64,000 nucleotides of DNA from positions 186,001 to 250,000 of the forward strand of contig CAIOTF010000023.1 of assembly GCA_903861125.1 (NCBI GenBank), read 5' to 3'. The notes under the pieces are model-generated. The model was given only the letters and a program-made list of their open reading frames with translations. It had not been told where the DNA came from and made no database searches. The position numbers and the translations under genes are program-made. This DNA is from an uncultured Ignavibacteriota bacterium (GTDB lineage: Bacteria > Bacteroidota > Ignavibacteria > UBA10030 > UBA8401). Of the stretch, positions 53,127 through 59,761 are shown piece by piece. Positions within the stretch are counted from its first letter, which is position 1, and the number at the start of each line of letters is the position of its first letter.

Positions 53127-55547
53127 ATGAAAAAACTTCTGTTTACCTTTTTCCTTCTTGTCTCATCCGCATTCCCGCAAGTATTCACCAAGGCCGCTGA
53201 AACAAACGGCGAAGCGAGAGATAAAACAATCGACGTGCTGCATTATAAGATCGAACTCTCGTTCGACGAAGCTAAAAAAATGGTGATCGGAAAAACGACT
53301 GCGACATTCGTTCCATACCGCTCGAACATCACTTCGGTGGAATTTGATGCGGAGGATATGAATTTCAAATCGGTGACCATGGGAAAACAATCGCTGAAAT
53401 TTGATTCCCTTTCTTCTACGATAAAAATATATCTCGGCAAACCGTATTCGTACCAAGACACGGTCACGGTTTCCATTGAATATACGAGTATTCCAAAACG
53501 CGGTGCATATTTTATCCAACCGGACTCAGCATATCCGGACAAACCATGGCAGATCTGGACACAGGGTGAAGATATGGACAACCATCACTGGTTCCCCTGC
53601 TGGGATTTTCCGAACGACAGAGCAACAAGCGAGATCATCGCCACCGTGAAAAGCAGCTACACATTTCTTTCCAACGGAAAACTTGTCAGTGAAAAAGAAA
53701 ATAAAAAAGCCGGAACAAAAACATTCCATTGGGTGCAGTCAAAACCTCACGTGACGTATCTGGTAATGTTTGCGGCCGGAGAGTATGCCGTGCTGAAAGG
53801 TGCATCGGACGGCATCCCGCTGGAATATTATGTGTATAAGAACAATGTCGATGACGCAAAAATAAACTATACCCACACAGCACCGATCATGAAGTTCTTC
53901 AATGATAAGATCGGTTTCCGTTACCCATGGGACAAGTACGCACAAGTAATCGTGGCGGATTTTGTTGCCGGCGGTATGGAAAATACTTCCGCAACCACGT
54001 TAATGGACAGAATTACTGTGTACAACGCCCGCGCCCGCGTCGACGAATCTGCTGTAAGCCTTATTGCCCACGAAATGGCGCATCAATGGTGGGGCGATGT
54101 GGTCACGTGCAAAGACTGGCGGCATCTCTGGTTGAACGAAAGTTTTGCCAGCTATTTCGATCCACTTTACTTTGAATTTGCGTTCGGCAGGGATGAATTC
54201 ACTAATATTATGTACAGCGCTCAGCAAGCCGGCATCAATACGGATAAGACGCTTGGCCGAAAGCCGATCGTCAGTGTCGGTTCATACGGTACAAATATCT
54301 ACCCGCGCGGAGCATCGGTTCTTCATATGCTGCGGTTCGTCCTCGGCGATGATCTGTTCTGGAAATCGCTCAATCATTATATCACGAAGAATCAATATCG
54401 GTGCGTTGAAACAAATGATCTGAAGGTTGCCGTTGAAGAAGCAACGGGACAAAATCTATACTGGTTCTTCGATCAGTGGGTGTACAAAGCGGGATATCCA
54501 AAATTCGATGTTTCGTATATCTATAATGATTCTTCCAAATCAATTGCTCTCACGGTTAAGCAGACGCAGACAATCGATAGTTTAACGGGTATATTCAACA
54601 CTCCGGTCGATATTGAGATCGTCAGCGGAAAGAGCGCCGCAACGCAGCGCATCACCATTTCACAAAAAGAATCTACATACACGTTCACGGTGTCGGAAAA
54701 GCCGTTATTGGTTCTGTTCGATAAAAATGACTGGATCCTGAAAGAAGTAAAATATTCCAACAGAACAATGAGTGAATGGGCGTTCCAGGCAGAGTTCGGG
54801 AATGATGTTGTGGCCCGAAAAACGGCCGTGGCGGAACTGGCAAAACTTGATTCAACGGGAACATATCTATCTCTTCTTTCAAAGATTTCTCACACCGATC
54901 CGTTCTGGGCTGTCCGACAATCAGCTGTGAATGCTCTTGGAACAATGAAAATACAGAACGATGAAAAGAAGCAGGCGTTGATCGCAGCATTGAACGATAA
55001 AAAATCACAAGTGCGCGCTTCGGCGGCATCACAGTTGGGAAACATCAAGTCCGGTGATGTTGCGGCAGCGCTTCGCTCGGCGTTGAACGATTCCAGTTAT
55101 TCAACAGAAGCCAATGCCTTAACTGCTCTTTCAAAGGTCGATTCGACGAACGCACTGCCGTATATCAAATCACGATTGAATCTCTGGTCGTACGGCAATC
55201 AGGTCGCCAACGCAGCTCTGAATGCCTTTGCGCGTATCGATTCTGTTGAATGCGTCACCGCCGCTTTGCAAAAAGTAAGATACGGTGCGGATGTTTTGGG
55301 GAGAAATACGGCGATGAATATCCTGAAAAAATTCGGAAAAACGCGCGATGATGTAAAGACAATGTGCGTTTCTCTGCTGACCGATAAATCGACATCAATC
55401 AGATTCAATGCGGCGGACTTCCTTGGTGAGAACGGGAATGAAGCTCACCTTGCGGCATTGGATATTCTTGCGAACAAAAAAGATGATGCGGCAAATGGAG
55501 TTGCAAAAAAAGCCATCGAAAAAATTAAAGAGCGAAATAAAAAATAA
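53127..55547 (+). CDS. M1 family aminopeptidase with C-terminal HEAT repeats
   Basis: The product is 806 residues from the ATG at 53127, where the signal peptide MKKLLFTFFLLVSSAFPQ begins; the longer frame from 53043 is unnecessary. It has the M1 beta domain, substrate motif GGMENTSA near 282-289, zinc motif HEMAH at 315-319 and the third ligand in NESF (Glu near 338). From about 610 on, short helical repeats (SAVNALGTMK, SAASQLGN, ALTALSKVD) form a HEAT-like solenoid in place of the usual ERAP1-type C-terminus. It is exported and probably trims peptides in the periplasm or outside. The M64 peptidase gene follows 8 nt later. Confidence 0.93.
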   Translation: MKKLLFTFFLLVSSAFPQVFTKAAETNGEARDKTIDVLHYKIELSFDEAKKMVIGKTTATFVPYRSNITSVEFDAEDMNFKSVTMGKQSLKFDSLSSTIKIYLGKPYSYQDTVTVSIEYTSIPKRGAYFIQPDSAYPDKPWQIWTQGEDMDNHHWFPCWDFPNDRATSEIIATVKSSYTFLSNGKLVSEKENKKAGTKTFHWVQSKPHVTYLVMFAAGEYAVLKGASDGIPLEYYVYKNNVDDAKINYTHTAPIMKFFNDKIGFRYPWDKYAQVIVADFVAGGMENTSATTLMDRITVYNARARVDESAVSLIAHEMAHQWWGDVVTCKDWRHLWLNESFASYFDPLYFEFAFGRDEFTNIMYSAQQAGINTDKTLGRKPIVSVGSYGTNIYPRGASVLHMLRFVLGDDLFWKSLNHYITKNQYRCVETNDLKVAVEEATGQNLYWFFDQWVYKAGYPKFDVSYIYNDSSKSIALTVKQTQTIDSLTGIFNTPVDIEIVSGKSAATQRITISQKESTYTFTVSEKPLLVLFDKNDWILKEVKYSNRTMSEWAFQAEFGNDVVARKTAVAELAKLDSTGTYLSLLSKISHTDPFWAVRQSAVNALGTMKIQNDEKKQALIAALNDKKSQVRASAASQLGNIKSGDVAAALRSALNDSSYSTEANALTALSKVDSTNALPYIKSRLNLWSYGNQVANAALNAFARIDSVECVTAALQKVRYGADVLGRNTAMNILKKFGKTRDDVKTMCVSLLTDKSTSIRFNAADFLGENGNEAHLAALDILANKKDDAANGVAKKAIEKIKERNKK

Positions 55548-55555
55548 GAGGACGT

Positions 55556-56965
55556 ATGAAACATTTACTGATGCAATGTATTTTCACTGCCGTACTATTT
55601 TCTCAATCCTTCAATCAGTTCTTCCTTGATAAAACAATGAGGGTTGACTATTACCACACCGGCACAAAAGGAACCGAGATCTTTGCGTTGGATAAGGTCT
55701 ACGACGAAGGGATCTGGTCCGGCAGCAAATCACAGCTGCTGGATAATCTGAACTACGGCGAGTATATGCTGCGCGTGTTCGACGTGCAGAGCGGCGCACC
55801 GGTCTATTCGCACGGATACTCTTCCATGTTCAACGAATGGCATTCCACGGATGAGGCGCTTGCCGGCACAATGAAAACATTTCACGAAACTGTCCGTATT
55901 CCCTTTCCCAAAAATAAAGTGCAGATGACAATTTCACGCCGCGATAAACAGATGATCTTCCATGAGTTGTTCTCCGCGGTCATCGATCCGAATAATTCTT
56001 CCGTTGTGAACACTCAAAAACGGACCTCGCAATTCAAATCTTCCAAGATCTTGGATAACGGTGCACCCGACAAGAAAGTTGACCTGCTAATACTTGGCGA
56101 CGGATACGCAAAAGCGGATATGCAGAAGTTCCGAGACGATGCTAAACATTATACTGAGGTTTTTTTCGGTACATCGCCGTACAAAGAACGGAAAAAGGAT
56201 TTCAATGTATGGACCATCGAAGTAGAATCCAAAGAGAGCGGCATAGACAAACCGGGAAAAAATGAATGGAAAGAGAATGCGCTCGGAACCATGTACGACA
56301 CATTCGGCAGCGCGCGGTATGTGCTGACAGAAGAGAACCGTACTCTTCGTGATATAGCCGGACAGGTGCCGTATGACGCGATTGCTATTTTAGTCAATGA
56401 TAACCGGTACGGCGGCGGCGGTATCTATAATCTTTATACGACCTGTTTCACTCAGTCGGATGCAAAAGGAAAAGAATGGCAGATGGATTACGTGTTTGTG
56501 CACGAGCTTGGTCATTCATTTGCGGGACTCGGAGACGAATATTATACATCGTCGGTCTCCTATAACGATTTCTATCAGGCCGGTGTTGAACCTTGGGAGC
56601 CCAATTTGACCGCATCAAAGAGCAGGGAAAACTTAAAATGGCGATCGCTCGTTGATGCATCGACCTCCATTCCCACGCCGTGGAAAAAAGCAGAATACGA
56701 TTCCATCGAAGCGTTGCGCGGAAAACTTGACCGTCTTGCCGCGGACTATTATGAAAAACGGGAGCCGCTGTATCAGGCAGAACAGGCTATCATCAAAGAC
56801 CCGGCATACAAGAATATGGTTGGCGCATTTGAAGGGGCCGGATATGTATCAAAAGGTATTTTTCGTCCCTCCATTGATTGCCGTATGTTCTCGCTCAGCC
56901 TGGTCGGATTCGATCCCGTTTGCTCGGCAGCGATTGAAAAGGTGATTGATTCGTACGTGAAATAA
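55556..56965 (+). CDS. M64 (IgA peptidase-type) metallopeptidase
   Basis: The 469-residue exported protein has a short signal peptide (about 1-20) and an N-terminal M64_N-like beta domain (about 25-150). The M64 catalytic domain starts at VDLLILGDGYAKADMQKF and has its zinc motif in VFVHELGHSFAGLGDEYY (first His near 316). GGGGIYNLYTTCF precedes it. The family was first known from an IgA-cleaving enzyme, but most members in free-living Bacteroidota have no known substrate. GAGG precedes the start 8 nt after the M1 gene, so the two peptidases are likely coexpressed. Confidence 0.93.
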   Translation: MKHLLMQCIFTAVLFSQSFNQFFLDKTMRVDYYHTGTKGTEIFALDKVYDEGIWSGSKSQLLDNLNYGEYMLRVFDVQSGAPVYSHGYSSMFNEWHSTDEALAGTMKTFHETVRIPFPKNKVQMTISRRDKQMIFHELFSAVIDPNNSSVVNTQKRTSQFKSSKILDNGAPDKKVDLLILGDGYAKADMQKFRDDAKHYTEVFFGTSPYKERKKDFNVWTIEVESKESGIDKPGKNEWKENALGTMYDTFGSARYVLTEENRTLRDIAGQVPYDAIAILVNDNRYGGGGIYNLYTTCFTQSDAKGKEWQMDYVFVHELGHSFAGLGDEYYTSSVSYNDFYQAGVEPWEPNLTASKSRENLKWRSLVDASTSIPTPWKKAEYDSIEALRGKLDRLAADYYEKREPLYQAEQAIIKDPAYKNMVGAFEGAGYVSKGIFRPSIDCRMFSLSLVGFDPVCSAAIEKVIDSYVK

Positions 56966-57050: not shown

Positions 57051-57839
57051 ATGGAAACCGGTTTCCATCTTGCCAAATGGTATTTCGACTGTATCACCGA
57101 TGGCGGTGAAGTGTGCATCGGGTACGTTGCTGTTATCCGTATAAAAAAATTCACTCTCCATTACACATCCGTGTTATGCGGTGATGCCCGGAACACCATC
57201 ACTTCATCCACATCTCTTCGTTCTTCTGTCCCCCCCGAGCTGAATAACGATACTGTTAAATGGTCGTGCAATGATCTTCATGCAAGCGGATCATGGAAAC
57301 GGAAATTCGATCCGGTTGAACGGACGTTGCTGGAGAACGAGCAGGGATCGATCCGCTGGTCTTGCATCATGCCGGGTGCAGAAGCGGAAATGCAGGTCGG
57401 AAACATCCGGCTTCACGGTTTAGGATACGTTGAATTTCTTGAGATGACGATTCCGCCGTGGAAATTGCCGATTGAAGAATTGCGCTGGGGACGGTTCGTC
57501 AGTACTACAGATGCGGTTGTGTGGATCGACTGGCGGGGCGATCACCCCCTCCGGTTCGTTACTCATAATGGAACGGAGATCGACTGCAGTGTGCTCGATG
57601 ATACCGTCGTTTCATCACGCGATAATCTTCTGCAACTTCAACTGGACCGATCGATGGTGATCCGCAGCGGCCCGATCATCAACACGGCGTTGAAAAAAAT
57701 TCCCGGCATCGAACTGGTCGTTCCTGCTAATATTCTGCACACCGATGAATGCAAGTGGGTAAGCCGCGGCACATTGCTTAACGGCGGTCATCATCCGTCA
57801 ACCGGATTTGCTGTTCACGAAATAGTGAGATTCTCATGA
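57051..57839 (+). CDS. CrtC/AttH-like (lipocalin-type) protein
   Basis: The product is 262 residues from the ATG at 57051; a TTG three codons earlier is possible. It has no signal peptide. It resembles the carotenoid 1,2-hydratase / AttH-like beta-barrel proteins: WYFDCITDGGEVCIGY near the start, LHGLGYVEFLEMTIPPW in the middle, IEELRWGRF, WIDWRGDHPLRFV, and the end KWVSRGTLLNGGHH. Members bind or hydrate hydrophobic, often isoprenoid, ligands. Its stop overlaps the start of the membrane fusion gene by 4 nt, so they probably act on the same lipid. Activity is unproven; the annotated hydratases are a distant model. Confidence 0.65.
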   Translation: METGFHLAKWYFDCITDGGEVCIGYVAVIRIKKFTLHYTSVLCGDARNTITSSTSLRSSVPPELNNDTVKWSCNDLHASGSWKRKFDPVERTLLENEQGSIRWSCIMPGAEAEMQVGNIRLHGLGYVEFLEMTIPPWKLPIEELRWGRFVSTTDAVVWIDWRGDHPLRFVTHNGTEIDCSVLDDTVVSSRDNLLQLQLDRSMVIRSGPIINTALKKIPGIELVVPANILHTDECKWVSRGTLLNGGHHPSTGFAVHEIVRFS

Positions 57840-59761
57840 ACTCTTCTTCTGTTACCGGTAAGATCGTGTACGGTTCCATTTTTATTCTCTTCATTCCGGC
57901 CCTTCTCGTTCTCTGGGCAAAACAAACGGAAGCATTCATCCTTCTGCCGGCGGAAATTCCGGCAGGAATAGGAATTGCCGCGCTGATCACCGGTATTCTC
58001 TTTCTTGGTTCCGGAATGCTTTCGCTGATCATTCACGGAAAAGGGCTGCCGATGAACGCATATCCGCCCCCTTTGTTCGTGCGGCAGGGTGTCTACCGGT
58101 ACTTTTCACACCCGATCTATATCGGATTCTGTCTGATCTGTTTTGGAATTTCTGCGGTATTCGGATCAGCAAGCGGCATTTGGCTCATCACACCGACGGT
58201 GATCGTGGGATGTACTGCTCTTGTGTACGGATTTGAGCGGCAGGATCTTGAAGAACGATTCGGTGTTCTGCCGAAACCGCTTATTGTACTTCCGGCAAAT
58301 GAAGAGCGTGTTCCGTTCACTCGGGAACGGATTTCCGTATTCATTCTATTATTTGTTCCGTGGATCATCCTGTATGAAGCGCTTACATTCATCGGAATAC
58401 CCAAAGATGCCGTTGAAGGATATTTTTCTTTTGAACAGAAAATTCCTGTGATGGAGTGGACCGAACTGTTTTATGTGAGCACATATTTTTTTGTTGTTGC
58501 CGTTCCGTTCATTACTCGCTCTTCATCGGTGCTGCGCACATTTACACAACGGGGATTGATTGCCACAGCATTCATCATGTTTTGTTTTCTGACAATTCCG
58601 GTCATAGCAACGCCGCGTCCATTTGTTTCTGCAACTGTGTTGGGTGACCTGCTTCAGCTTGAACGGTCATATGATTTTTCCGGTGCTGCATTTCCTTCGT
58701 TCCATGTTGTCTGGGCGCTCCTTGCGGCTTCTGCCGTATCCAAATCTTTTCCGCGGCTGATTGTTTTATGGAGGATGCTTGCATTGGCGATCATCATCAG
58801 CTGCATTACTACGGGAATGCATTCGCTTTTTGATGTTGCGGGAGGCATCATCGCCGCAGGCATTGTTATGAGAATCGATGCTGTGTGGCAGATCCTTCGG
58901 AAAGTATCGGAATACATTGCAAACTCCTGGAAGGAATGGCACATCAACGGCATACGCATCATTAATCACGGCGCGTATGCCGGTGCAGGAACATTTGCAG
59001 GATTGAGTATGATCGGAATATTGCTCGGTCCCGGTGCGGCTCTTGCAACACTGATCGTGGCGTTCTGCTCGCTCATCGCCGCAGGATTGTGGGCTCAGTT
59101 TATTGAAGGTTCGCCGGCTCTTCTTCGTCCTTACGGATATTATGGCGGATTGATCGGAGGAATTTTCGGTTGTGTTGTAGCGCAATTTGCCGGAACAAAT
59201 ATCTGGCTGCTCTTCGCCGCTTTTGCAGTGGCAGGACCATGCATTCAGGCGTTCGGACGCCTGCGGTGTCTGGTTCAAGGCTGCTGCCACGGACACGCTG
59301 CAAATGAATCGCTCGGGATCCGCTATATACATCCGCGCAGCCGCGTCTGTCGCCTGGCAGGATTAAAAAATATTCCGATCCATCCAACACCTCTCTATTC
59401 CATCCTGTGGAATATCGTCACCGGCATTATTCTGGCCCGGTTCTGGTCGCTCGCTCTTCCGCCGACATTTATTGCCGGAATGTATCTTGTCTTAAACGGA
59501 ATGGGAAGATTTGTAGAGGAATCGTTCCGCGGGGAACCGCAAACTCCGATACTCGGTAAACTTCGTTTATATCAATTGATGGCCATACTCAGCGTTGTAA
59601 CAGGCATCCTCTTCTCGATGATCAGAACTGATACCGTTCTGCCGAATGCTGAATTCAACTGGATTTCGATCATTGCGGCTTGTATCTTTGGTCTGTTCAC
59701 TTGGTTTGCGCTCGGTGTCGATTTCCCAAATTCCAATAAACGTTTTGCCCGGCTTGTATAG
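57836..59761 (+). CDS. Three-domain membrane fusion: ICMT-like methyltransferase, PAP2 phosphatase, Lgt-like transferase
   Basis: The 641-residue polytopic protein joins three enzyme-like parts. About 1-155 resembles isoprenylcysteine carboxyl methyltransferase / DUF1295-type methyltransferases (YRYFSHPIYIGF at 87-98 and FERQDLEERFG at 133-143). About 200-350 resembles PAP2 lipid phosphatases (TPRPF 259-263, FPSFH 286-290, GMHSLFDVAGG 327-337; the usual PSGH is PSFH). About 385-600 resembles prolipoprotein diacylglyceryl transferase (GRLRCLVQGCCHG 474-486, IHPTPLY 515-521, GRFVEESFRGEP 557-568). Together with the overlapping CrtC/AttH-like gene it looks like a lipid- or lipoprotein-modifying unit. 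I know of no characterised protein with this domain order. Confidence 0.85.
   Translation: MNSSSVTGKIVYGSIFILFIPALLVLWAKQTEAFILLPAEIPAGIGIAALITGILFLGSGMLSLIIHGKGLPMNAYPPPLFVRQGVYRYFSHPIYIGFCLICFGISAVFGSASGIWLITPTVIVGCTALVYGFERQDLEERFGVLPKPLIVLPANEERVPFTRERISVFILLFVPWIILYEALTFIGIPKDAVEGYFSFEQKIPVMEWTELFYVSTYFFVVAVPFITRSSSVLRTFTQRGLIATAFIMFCFLTIPVIATPRPFVSATVLGDLLQLERSYDFSGAAFPSFHVVWALLAASAVSKSFPRLIVLWRMLALAIIISCITTGMHSLFDVAGGIIAAGIVMRIDAVWQILRKVSEYIANSWKEWHINGIRIINHGAYAGAGTFAGLSMIGILLGPGAALATLIVAFCSLIAAGLWAQFIEGSPALLRPYGYYGGLIGGIFGCVVAQFAGTNIWLLFAAFAVAGPCIQAFGRLRCLVQGCCHGHAANESLGIRYIHPRSRVCRLAGLKNIPIHPTPLYSILWNIVTGIILARFWSLALPPTFIAGMYLVLNGMGRFVEESFRGEPQTPILGKLRLYQLMAILSVVTGILFSMIRTDTVLPNAEFNWISIIAACIFGLFTWFALGVDFPNSNKRFARLV

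Follow-up and report, generated by a model that had tools for sequence, protein, structure and literature searches.

A conserved gene pair joining a methyltransferase–PAP2–LGT fusion to a barrel-fold partner, with a predicted cytosol-facing Lgt-type site

What does a membrane protein do that carries three lipid-acting enzyme families in a row and is encoded beside one particular soluble protein? The question is raised by a 64,000-nucleotide stretch of an uncultured Ignavibacteriota genome (contig CAIOTF010000023.1, positions 186,001 to 250,000; hereafter the window), where a soluble partner gene (57051..57839, forward strand; 262 aa from its ATG as read from the open reading frame) is followed on the same strand by a gene for a fusion of PEMT-type methyltransferase, PAP2 and LGT parts (57836..59761; 641 aa, 18 predicted membrane helices). 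The partner's stop and the fusion's start share the forward-strand bases ATGA at 57836..57839, which bears out the 4-nt overlap that an earlier note on this DNA had read. Here we report that the two genes form a conserved pair in about ten phyla and that the LGT part is predicted to be inverted in the membrane relative to Escherichia coli Lgt. Our favoured reading is lipid tailoring, perhaps isoprenoid-linked, and not a second lipoprotein enzyme; that the pair is a two-gene module making or tailoring a membrane lipid, its chemistry deduced from the enzyme families, we regard as an even call.

Profile searches divide the fusion into three parts, all on the forward strand. The first (57851..58261, residues 6–142, four membrane helices) matches Pfam PEMT (PF04191) over residues 46–142 with 32.6 bits against a cut-off of 25, and misses the ICMT (PF04140) cut-off of 24 by 0.3 bits (23.7 bits, residues 81–117); the second (58280..58876, residues 149–347) matches PAP2_3 (PF14378; residues 205–345, 41.5 bits, cut-off 27); and the third (58889..59635, residues 352–600) matches LGT (PF01790; residues 435–594, 80.7 bits, cut-off 24.9), scoring 68.8 bits against the 334 of the NCBIfam Lgt equivalog cut-off. 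The three lipid-acting domains in series proposed earlier stand, with one change: the methyltransferase, which carries an HPIYxG motif and E134, passes the PEMT cut-off and not that of ICMT. Beyond the LGT part lie an extra helix (609–627) and a K/R-rich C-terminus (59636..59758, forward strand; residues 601–641). Structure comparison of the fusion model (predicted local distance difference test, pLDDT, 92.9; predicted template modelling score, pTM, 0.92) aligns residues 352–600 with E. coli Lgt (5azb, Z 16.1) and, at Z about 13, residues ~149–347 with IPC synthase, Aur1 and a sphingomyelin-synthase-related protein, below which further PAP2 enzymes come. Against the sequences of solved structures, a phmmer search with the fusion gave nothing credible at E up to 1, and its profile gave no match at E 0.01.

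The pairing extends well beyond the window. GTDB species genomes were scanned with two PEMT-part peptides as anchor, so that relatives lacking that part would be missed; the scan gave 205 pattern matches, 172 of them encoding relatives, and the best 80 of these were kept. By title these loci span about ten phyla (Ignavibacteriota, Bacteroidota, Acidobacteriota, Planctomycetota, Verrucomicrobiota, Myxococcota, Pseudomonadota, Calditrichota, Gemmatimonadetes and Zixibacteria), with Neisseria wadsworthii and Actibacterium among the Pseudomonadota carriers. The recurrence of the same architecture at 80 retained loci rules out a one-off or an assembly artefact, and the PEMT–PAP2–LGT domain order, described in the earlier note as one not met in characterised systems, proves to be old and widespread. 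Across 49 fusion proteins (the window protein plus 48 of the 80, picked for completeness and spread to form a deep alignment) Pfam recovers LGT and PEMT in all 49 and PAP2_3 in 42.

A barrel gene lies upstream of the fusion at 78 of the best 80 loci; of the two remaining loci, one (L060) starts some 75 bases ahead of the fusion match, and the other (L103) is taken up below. Three of the 78 pairs are non-adjacent by the measure used, two (L068, L116) with an ATP-binding cassette (ABC) gene pair between the genes and one (L118) where the match covered just the second part of the fusion. The overlap is exactly 4 nt in 34 of the 75 adjacent pairs and 1 nt in one, and in 17 more the nearest in-frame start lies within the upstream gene, by 10 or 13 nt. 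Pairwise identities of fusion and partner correlate at 0.81 over 75 loci (mean 0.00 and maximum 0.13 in 200 shuffles). Closer to home, among 60 relatives (window genome included) the fusion occurs in five genomes, in one of them split over two contig ends, and the partner in the same five, adjacent in each; the 4-nt overlap is kept in G009, G012 and G017 as well. In all, 25 of the 60 gave some fusion match at E 0.001, 20 of these being weak one-part matches that were not counted. Across the phylum, evenly sampled at 395 genomes and with searches scoring only the best first-look candidates per genome, each gene occurs in eight genomes, the same eight, G416 among them. The survey that the earlier note called for thus finds the CrtC-like neighbour conserved beside the fusion. 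Plasmid records held no match to the fusion; the fusion tree (78 of 83 sequences, those over 560 aa) mixes phyla in places, which suggests transfer of the pair.

Which side of the membrane does the LGT part face? The established role of Lgt is that of a lipoprotein enzyme whose site faces the periplasm. The 18 hydrophobic helices of the fusion model comprise four in the PEMT part, six in PAP2 and seven plus one in LGT, two further helices (268–279, 347–362) not being hydrophobic. With the N-terminus inside, the PEMT site comes to lie in the cytosol, where S-adenosylmethionine (SAM) is, and the PAP2 site in the periplasm, both usual for these families, and the LGT part then begins on the cytosolic side, opposite to E. 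coli Lgt.

Charge points the same way: lysines and arginines on the LGT catalytic-face loops and C-terminus outnumber those on the other loops in 49 of 49 fusions (means 11.8 versus 1.2). For comparison, 17 of the 49 (every third) were set against 27 stand-alone LGT proteins, namely this genome's own Lgt and 26 others found via match to the fusion profile (three PAP2-only loci left out), which need not be their hosts' working Lgt because some of the genomes hold further LGT genes. The catalytic and other faces carry means of 11.4 and 0.6 in the fusions, and the opposite lean, 5.4 and 7.1, in the stand-alone proteins (20 of 27 individually); E. coli Lgt has 5 and 8, and the available part of the Lgt crystal paper describes its cytoplasmic side as positive and its periplasmic side as negative. 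After removal of the K/R columns conserved in either set, the contrast persists (fusions 6.5 versus 0.6, stand-alone 3.5 versus 6.2), and the G416 fusion, which has no PAP2 part, keeps the same parity, with 12 versus 1 in loops picked by eye. Helix count and charge distribution together lead us to predict that the catalytic face is cytosolic, inverted with respect to E. coli Lgt, rather than periplasm-facing.

The partner's AlphaFold model (pLDDT 95.9) matches over its whole length the double calycin-like barrels of fungal pericyclases (Z 21–22), 25-phosphosteroid lyase (19), AttH NE1406 (18.3) and kievitone hydratase (17), after which the next row drops to Z 8.3. No sequence profile joins it to this group: the window protein has no NCBIfam match and only a chance-level Pfam match, with no CrtC/AttH family (PF07143, PF09410 and kin) at E up to 1, and a Pfam scan of 45 relatives found no such family at E up to 0.1, only two families unrelated to CrtC/AttH, in one protein each at E 0.01–0.03. 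Among solved structures phmmer gave nothing credible at E up to 1, and the partner profile a single stray match at E 0.5. The CrtC/AttH label proposed earlier is therefore right for the predicted fold and not for a sequence family. Invariant in a deep alignment (the window protein and 44 of the 78 partners, picked for completeness and spread) are D13, Y25, W103, G125, Y126, E128, L144, W146, G147, W158 and E257; the catalytic residues given for Rubrivivax gelatinosus CrtC in the accessible part of one study are H239, W241, Y266 and D268 (PMC4717167). The model opens with a strand at residue 5 and shows no signal peptide by eye, and the partner is therefore predicted on the cytosolic side, as are the LGT and methyltransferase sites. 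At one myxobacterial locus (L086) two barrel-protein matches lie near one fusion, one of them at L086:1130-1909.

How might such parts work together? We envisage a fusion with two cytosolic-face sites, a SAM-dependent PEMT-type methyltransferase and an Lgt-type site whose orientation is opposite to that of the E. coli enzyme, and one periplasmic-face site, a PAP2 (IPC-synthase-like) phosphatase or phosphotransferase. The cytosolic barrel partner would bind, present or chemically alter a hydrophobic acceptor, perhaps isoprenoid-derived, in line with the earlier suggestion of a soluble barrel binding or hydrating a hydrophobic ligand. The Lgt-type site would move a diacylglyceryl group from inner-leaflet phosphatidylglycerol to this acceptor, the PEMT site would methylate it, and PAP2 would provide an accessory step that in some lineages is inactive or absent. 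The donor, the acceptor and the order of the steps are what we infer from the enzyme families, and the isoprenoid link is likewise deduced. In its full form, an evolutionarily inverted Lgt on the cytosolic leaflet working with a methyltransferase and an AttH-fold partner to pass diacylglycerol taken from phosphatidylglycerol on to an isoprenoid or some other small hydrophobic acceptor, yielding an undescribed lipid class across some ten phyla, the proposal is a tentative one.

The isoprenoid element comes from occasional neighbours, sought at 84 loci (the 80, this genome's, G009's, L140 and L142). A UbiA prenyltransferase gene lies directly upstream at six of them, all Acidobacteriota; a squalene/phytoene-synthase-like gene occurs at three (L113, L116, L140), a small ABC ATPase–permease pair at five in three phyla (L068, L085, L103, L116, L142), and a cytochrome P450 at one (L142). 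Loci that supplied the queries match by construction, and weak ABC-ATPase matches at five further loci (23–29% identity, no matching permease) were not counted. AttH relatives, too, have been reported beside ABC transporters (PMC2954199, section 3.4). The UbiA, synthase-like, P450 and ABC guests may point to an isoprenoid or other hydrophobic product, possibly exported, though the numbers are small and most of the 84 loci show none of them.

Could the module remodel glycerolipids with no isoprenoid involved? PAP2 would then make diacylglycerol or move a phosphate head group, PEMT would methylate an amine head group, LGT would join diacylglycerol, and the barrel would serve as lipid carrier. 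Such a scheme fits a PAP2 part closest to head-group transferases (IPC synthase, Aur1, the sphingomyelin-synthase-related protein), a methyltransferase that passes the PEMT cut-off and not the ICMT one, and neighbourhoods in which, at most loci, the search turned up no isoprenoid gene beside the pair. It sits less well with the fate of PAP2. Among the 83 fusion sequences examined for residue conservation, the PAP2 His/His/Asp set (H290, H329, D333) is kept in 74, is His/His/Glu in one and is lost in eight; and in G416 the PEMT part is joined directly to LGT, the PAP2 part being absent, from which it follows that the PAP2 step is dispensable in some lineages. The UbiA and synthase-like guests, and a partner with a fold also found in terpenoid- and steroid-acting enzymes, likewise tell against this scheme, which we judge unlikely.

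Six of the eight losses (L103, L111, L113, L115, L116, L140) form one tree group with support 100. The three synthase-like cases all belong to it, while L103 has an ABC pair, L115 has neither, and the contig of L111 holds only 285 bases upstream. L057, also PAP2-lost, stands separately; seven of the eight PAP2-lost rows are labelled in the tree, L080 (one changed residue) being left unlabelled, and the ABC label marks only carriers outside the group. The G416 locus (L142:7417-12550) presents a gene row of barrel protein, cytochrome P450, PEMT–LGT without PAP2, ABC ATPase and ABC-2-like permease. A frame in another genome (L202:2-1702, G452:C199) was rejected as a second PAP2-less PEMT–LGT case, as it joins a PEMT-type part to what by eye is a PlsC acyltransferase-like part, another fusion of a methyltransferase with a lipid enzyme.

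A second alternative keeps Lgt nearer its usual work: LGT would diacylglycerylate cysteines in dedicated proteins, the methyltransferase or PAP2 would finish the anchor, and the barrel would be a chaperone. Membership of the LGT family and the E. coli Lgt fold speak for it, as do the retained residues. E. coli R143, R239, E243 and R246 align with R475, R558, E562 and R565 of the fusion, each invariant where covered. The LGT signature, GRLRCLVQGCCHG in the window protein (59255..59293, forward strand; residues 474–486), keeps its pattern GRxRCxxxGCCHG in all 82 sequences that cover it. The positions of E. coli H103, N146, E151, E202 and Y235 are changed, the His103 of the HGGL motif aligning with Y436. 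In E. coli this His is essential, H103A, H103N, H103Q, H103R and H103Y all failing, according to the available part of that study (PMC4728403).

We nevertheless do not take the missing H103 to disprove Lgt activity. As the earlier note had asked us to check, this genome holds one other LGT gene (G000:C42:161608-162381), which spans the full profile length and rules out the fusion as the genome's only lgt; its product has Tyr at the H103 position and Cys at N146. Seven stand-alone LGT proteins inspected likewise have Tyr or Phe at the H103 position, reading FYGG, FYGS or FFGS around it, and six of the seven have GCC(H/Y)G. Because this genome's separate Lgt and the stand-alone proteins share them, changes of the H103/N146 type mark a wider LGT subtype. 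What separates the fusion from the seven is an Arg for E. coli G145 (R477, 82 of 82). The separate, full-length Lgt (L001:1501-2274) reads GDGDYG in its signature, so that the active site of LGT proteins in this group differs from that of E. coli.

Of ten carrier genomes examined, nine hold one or more LGT matches in addition to the fusion, a point against this alternative; in G151 (L138:8277-10310), rated 100% complete, no LGT match other than the fusion appears at E 1e-5, as protein lipidation would have it. The five changed active-site positions (H103 and N146 being lost from the separate Lgt too) count against this alternative, and it is weakened because the catalytic face is predicted to be cytosolic, where the Cys of an exported lipobox would not be. 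We consider it improbable, and of the earlier idea that the pair modifies one membrane lipid or lipoprotein class, the lipid half is favoured and the lipoprotein half recedes. That the LGT part is non-catalytic, only binding lipid or holding a complex while methyltransferase and barrel do the chemistry, would accord with the several changed positions, and is most unlikely given a signature that all 82 sequences covering it preserve, the PAP2 set being less strictly conserved, and a G416 protein that retains LGT and not PAP2.

Several observations weigh against lipid tailoring by an inverted, isoprenoid-linked Lgt. Seven of the 27 stand-alone LGT proteins individually lack the E. coli charge lean, and experiment has fixed the orientation of E. 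coli Lgt only; L103 has a fusion and no barrel gene in the 8 kb upstream, with an ABC ATPase–permease pair instead; and the fusion as sole LGT match of G151 would be compatible with lipoprotein work in that genome. Among the structures listed for the entire fusion there is no solved relative of the methyltransferase part, and the list is uninformative about that part. The isoprenoid link draws on few loci, and the synthase-like label is itself soft, L113 scoring 20 Pfam bits against a cut-off of 26 and L140 and L116, with no such hit, being joined by BLAST similarity. Taking these with the pairing, the invariant residues and the predicted topology, we still favour a lipid-tailoring module, which probably makes a lipid not yet described; the acceptor is perhaps an isoprenoid, a point on which our confidence is lower than on lipid tailoring in general.

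Directly 5′ of the pair in the window (53127–56965) lie an M1 aminopeptidase with HEAT repeats and then an M64 (IgA) peptidase. M64, M1 and sortilin-like neighbours were rejected as parts of the system since the flanks differ in G009, G012 and G017; the M64 and sortilin-like genes are retained beside the pair in G004, of the same genus. The window's source genome (G000) is 4.19 Mb in 54 contigs and is rated 100% complete.

The gene pair is apparently undescribed: among open-licence papers, searches brought up none that we could recognise as dealing with this fusion or with an Lgt of inverted orientation, and the part of the lipocone paper available to us does not describe the module (PMC12419801). 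A myxosortase study proposes, in the part available, that MYXO-CTERM proteins are served by an Lgt-like acyltransferase yet to be identified (PMC11980579), and we saw no evidence in that part linking it to the module. If our reading is true, a widespread, strictly paired, cytosol-facing version would mean that Lgt-type alkyl transfer was recruited for lipids of other kinds. The pair would then open a genetic route to an unknown membrane lipid in Acidobacteriota, Bacteroidota, Planctomycetota, Verrucomicrobiota, Myxococcota and other groups, and would give a function to the partner's protein family, which is without a Pfam model.

Four kinds of known system come closest to the module. With E. 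coli Lgt (phosphatidylglycerol:prolipoprotein diacylglyceryl transferase, 5azb) the fusion has in common the fold, PF01790 and the equivalents of R143, R239, E243 and R246, but it differs in the attached PEMT and PAP2 parts, the extra C-terminal helix, the changes at H103, N146, E151, E202 and Y235, the Arg at G145 (82 of 82) and a catalytic face predicted to be cytosolic. PEMT/ICMT methyltransferases share with it an HPxYxG motif, a downstream invariant Glu and PF04191 over cut-off, whereas the fusion falls just under the ICMT cut-off and is joined to PAP2 and LGT. The PAP2 phosphotransferases IPC synthase and Aur1 share the fold over residues 149–347 and the His/His/Asp set (74 of 83), although in the fusion this part is not free-standing, is dead in one clade and is absent in G416. 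Finally, the partner has the double-barrel fold of AttH NE1406, the fungal pericyclases, kievitone hydratase and 25-phosphosteroid lyase (Z 17–22), but at ~8–13% identity in the fold matches, with no profile match and a shorter chain, and, unlike those proteins, it is strictly paired with a membrane enzyme.

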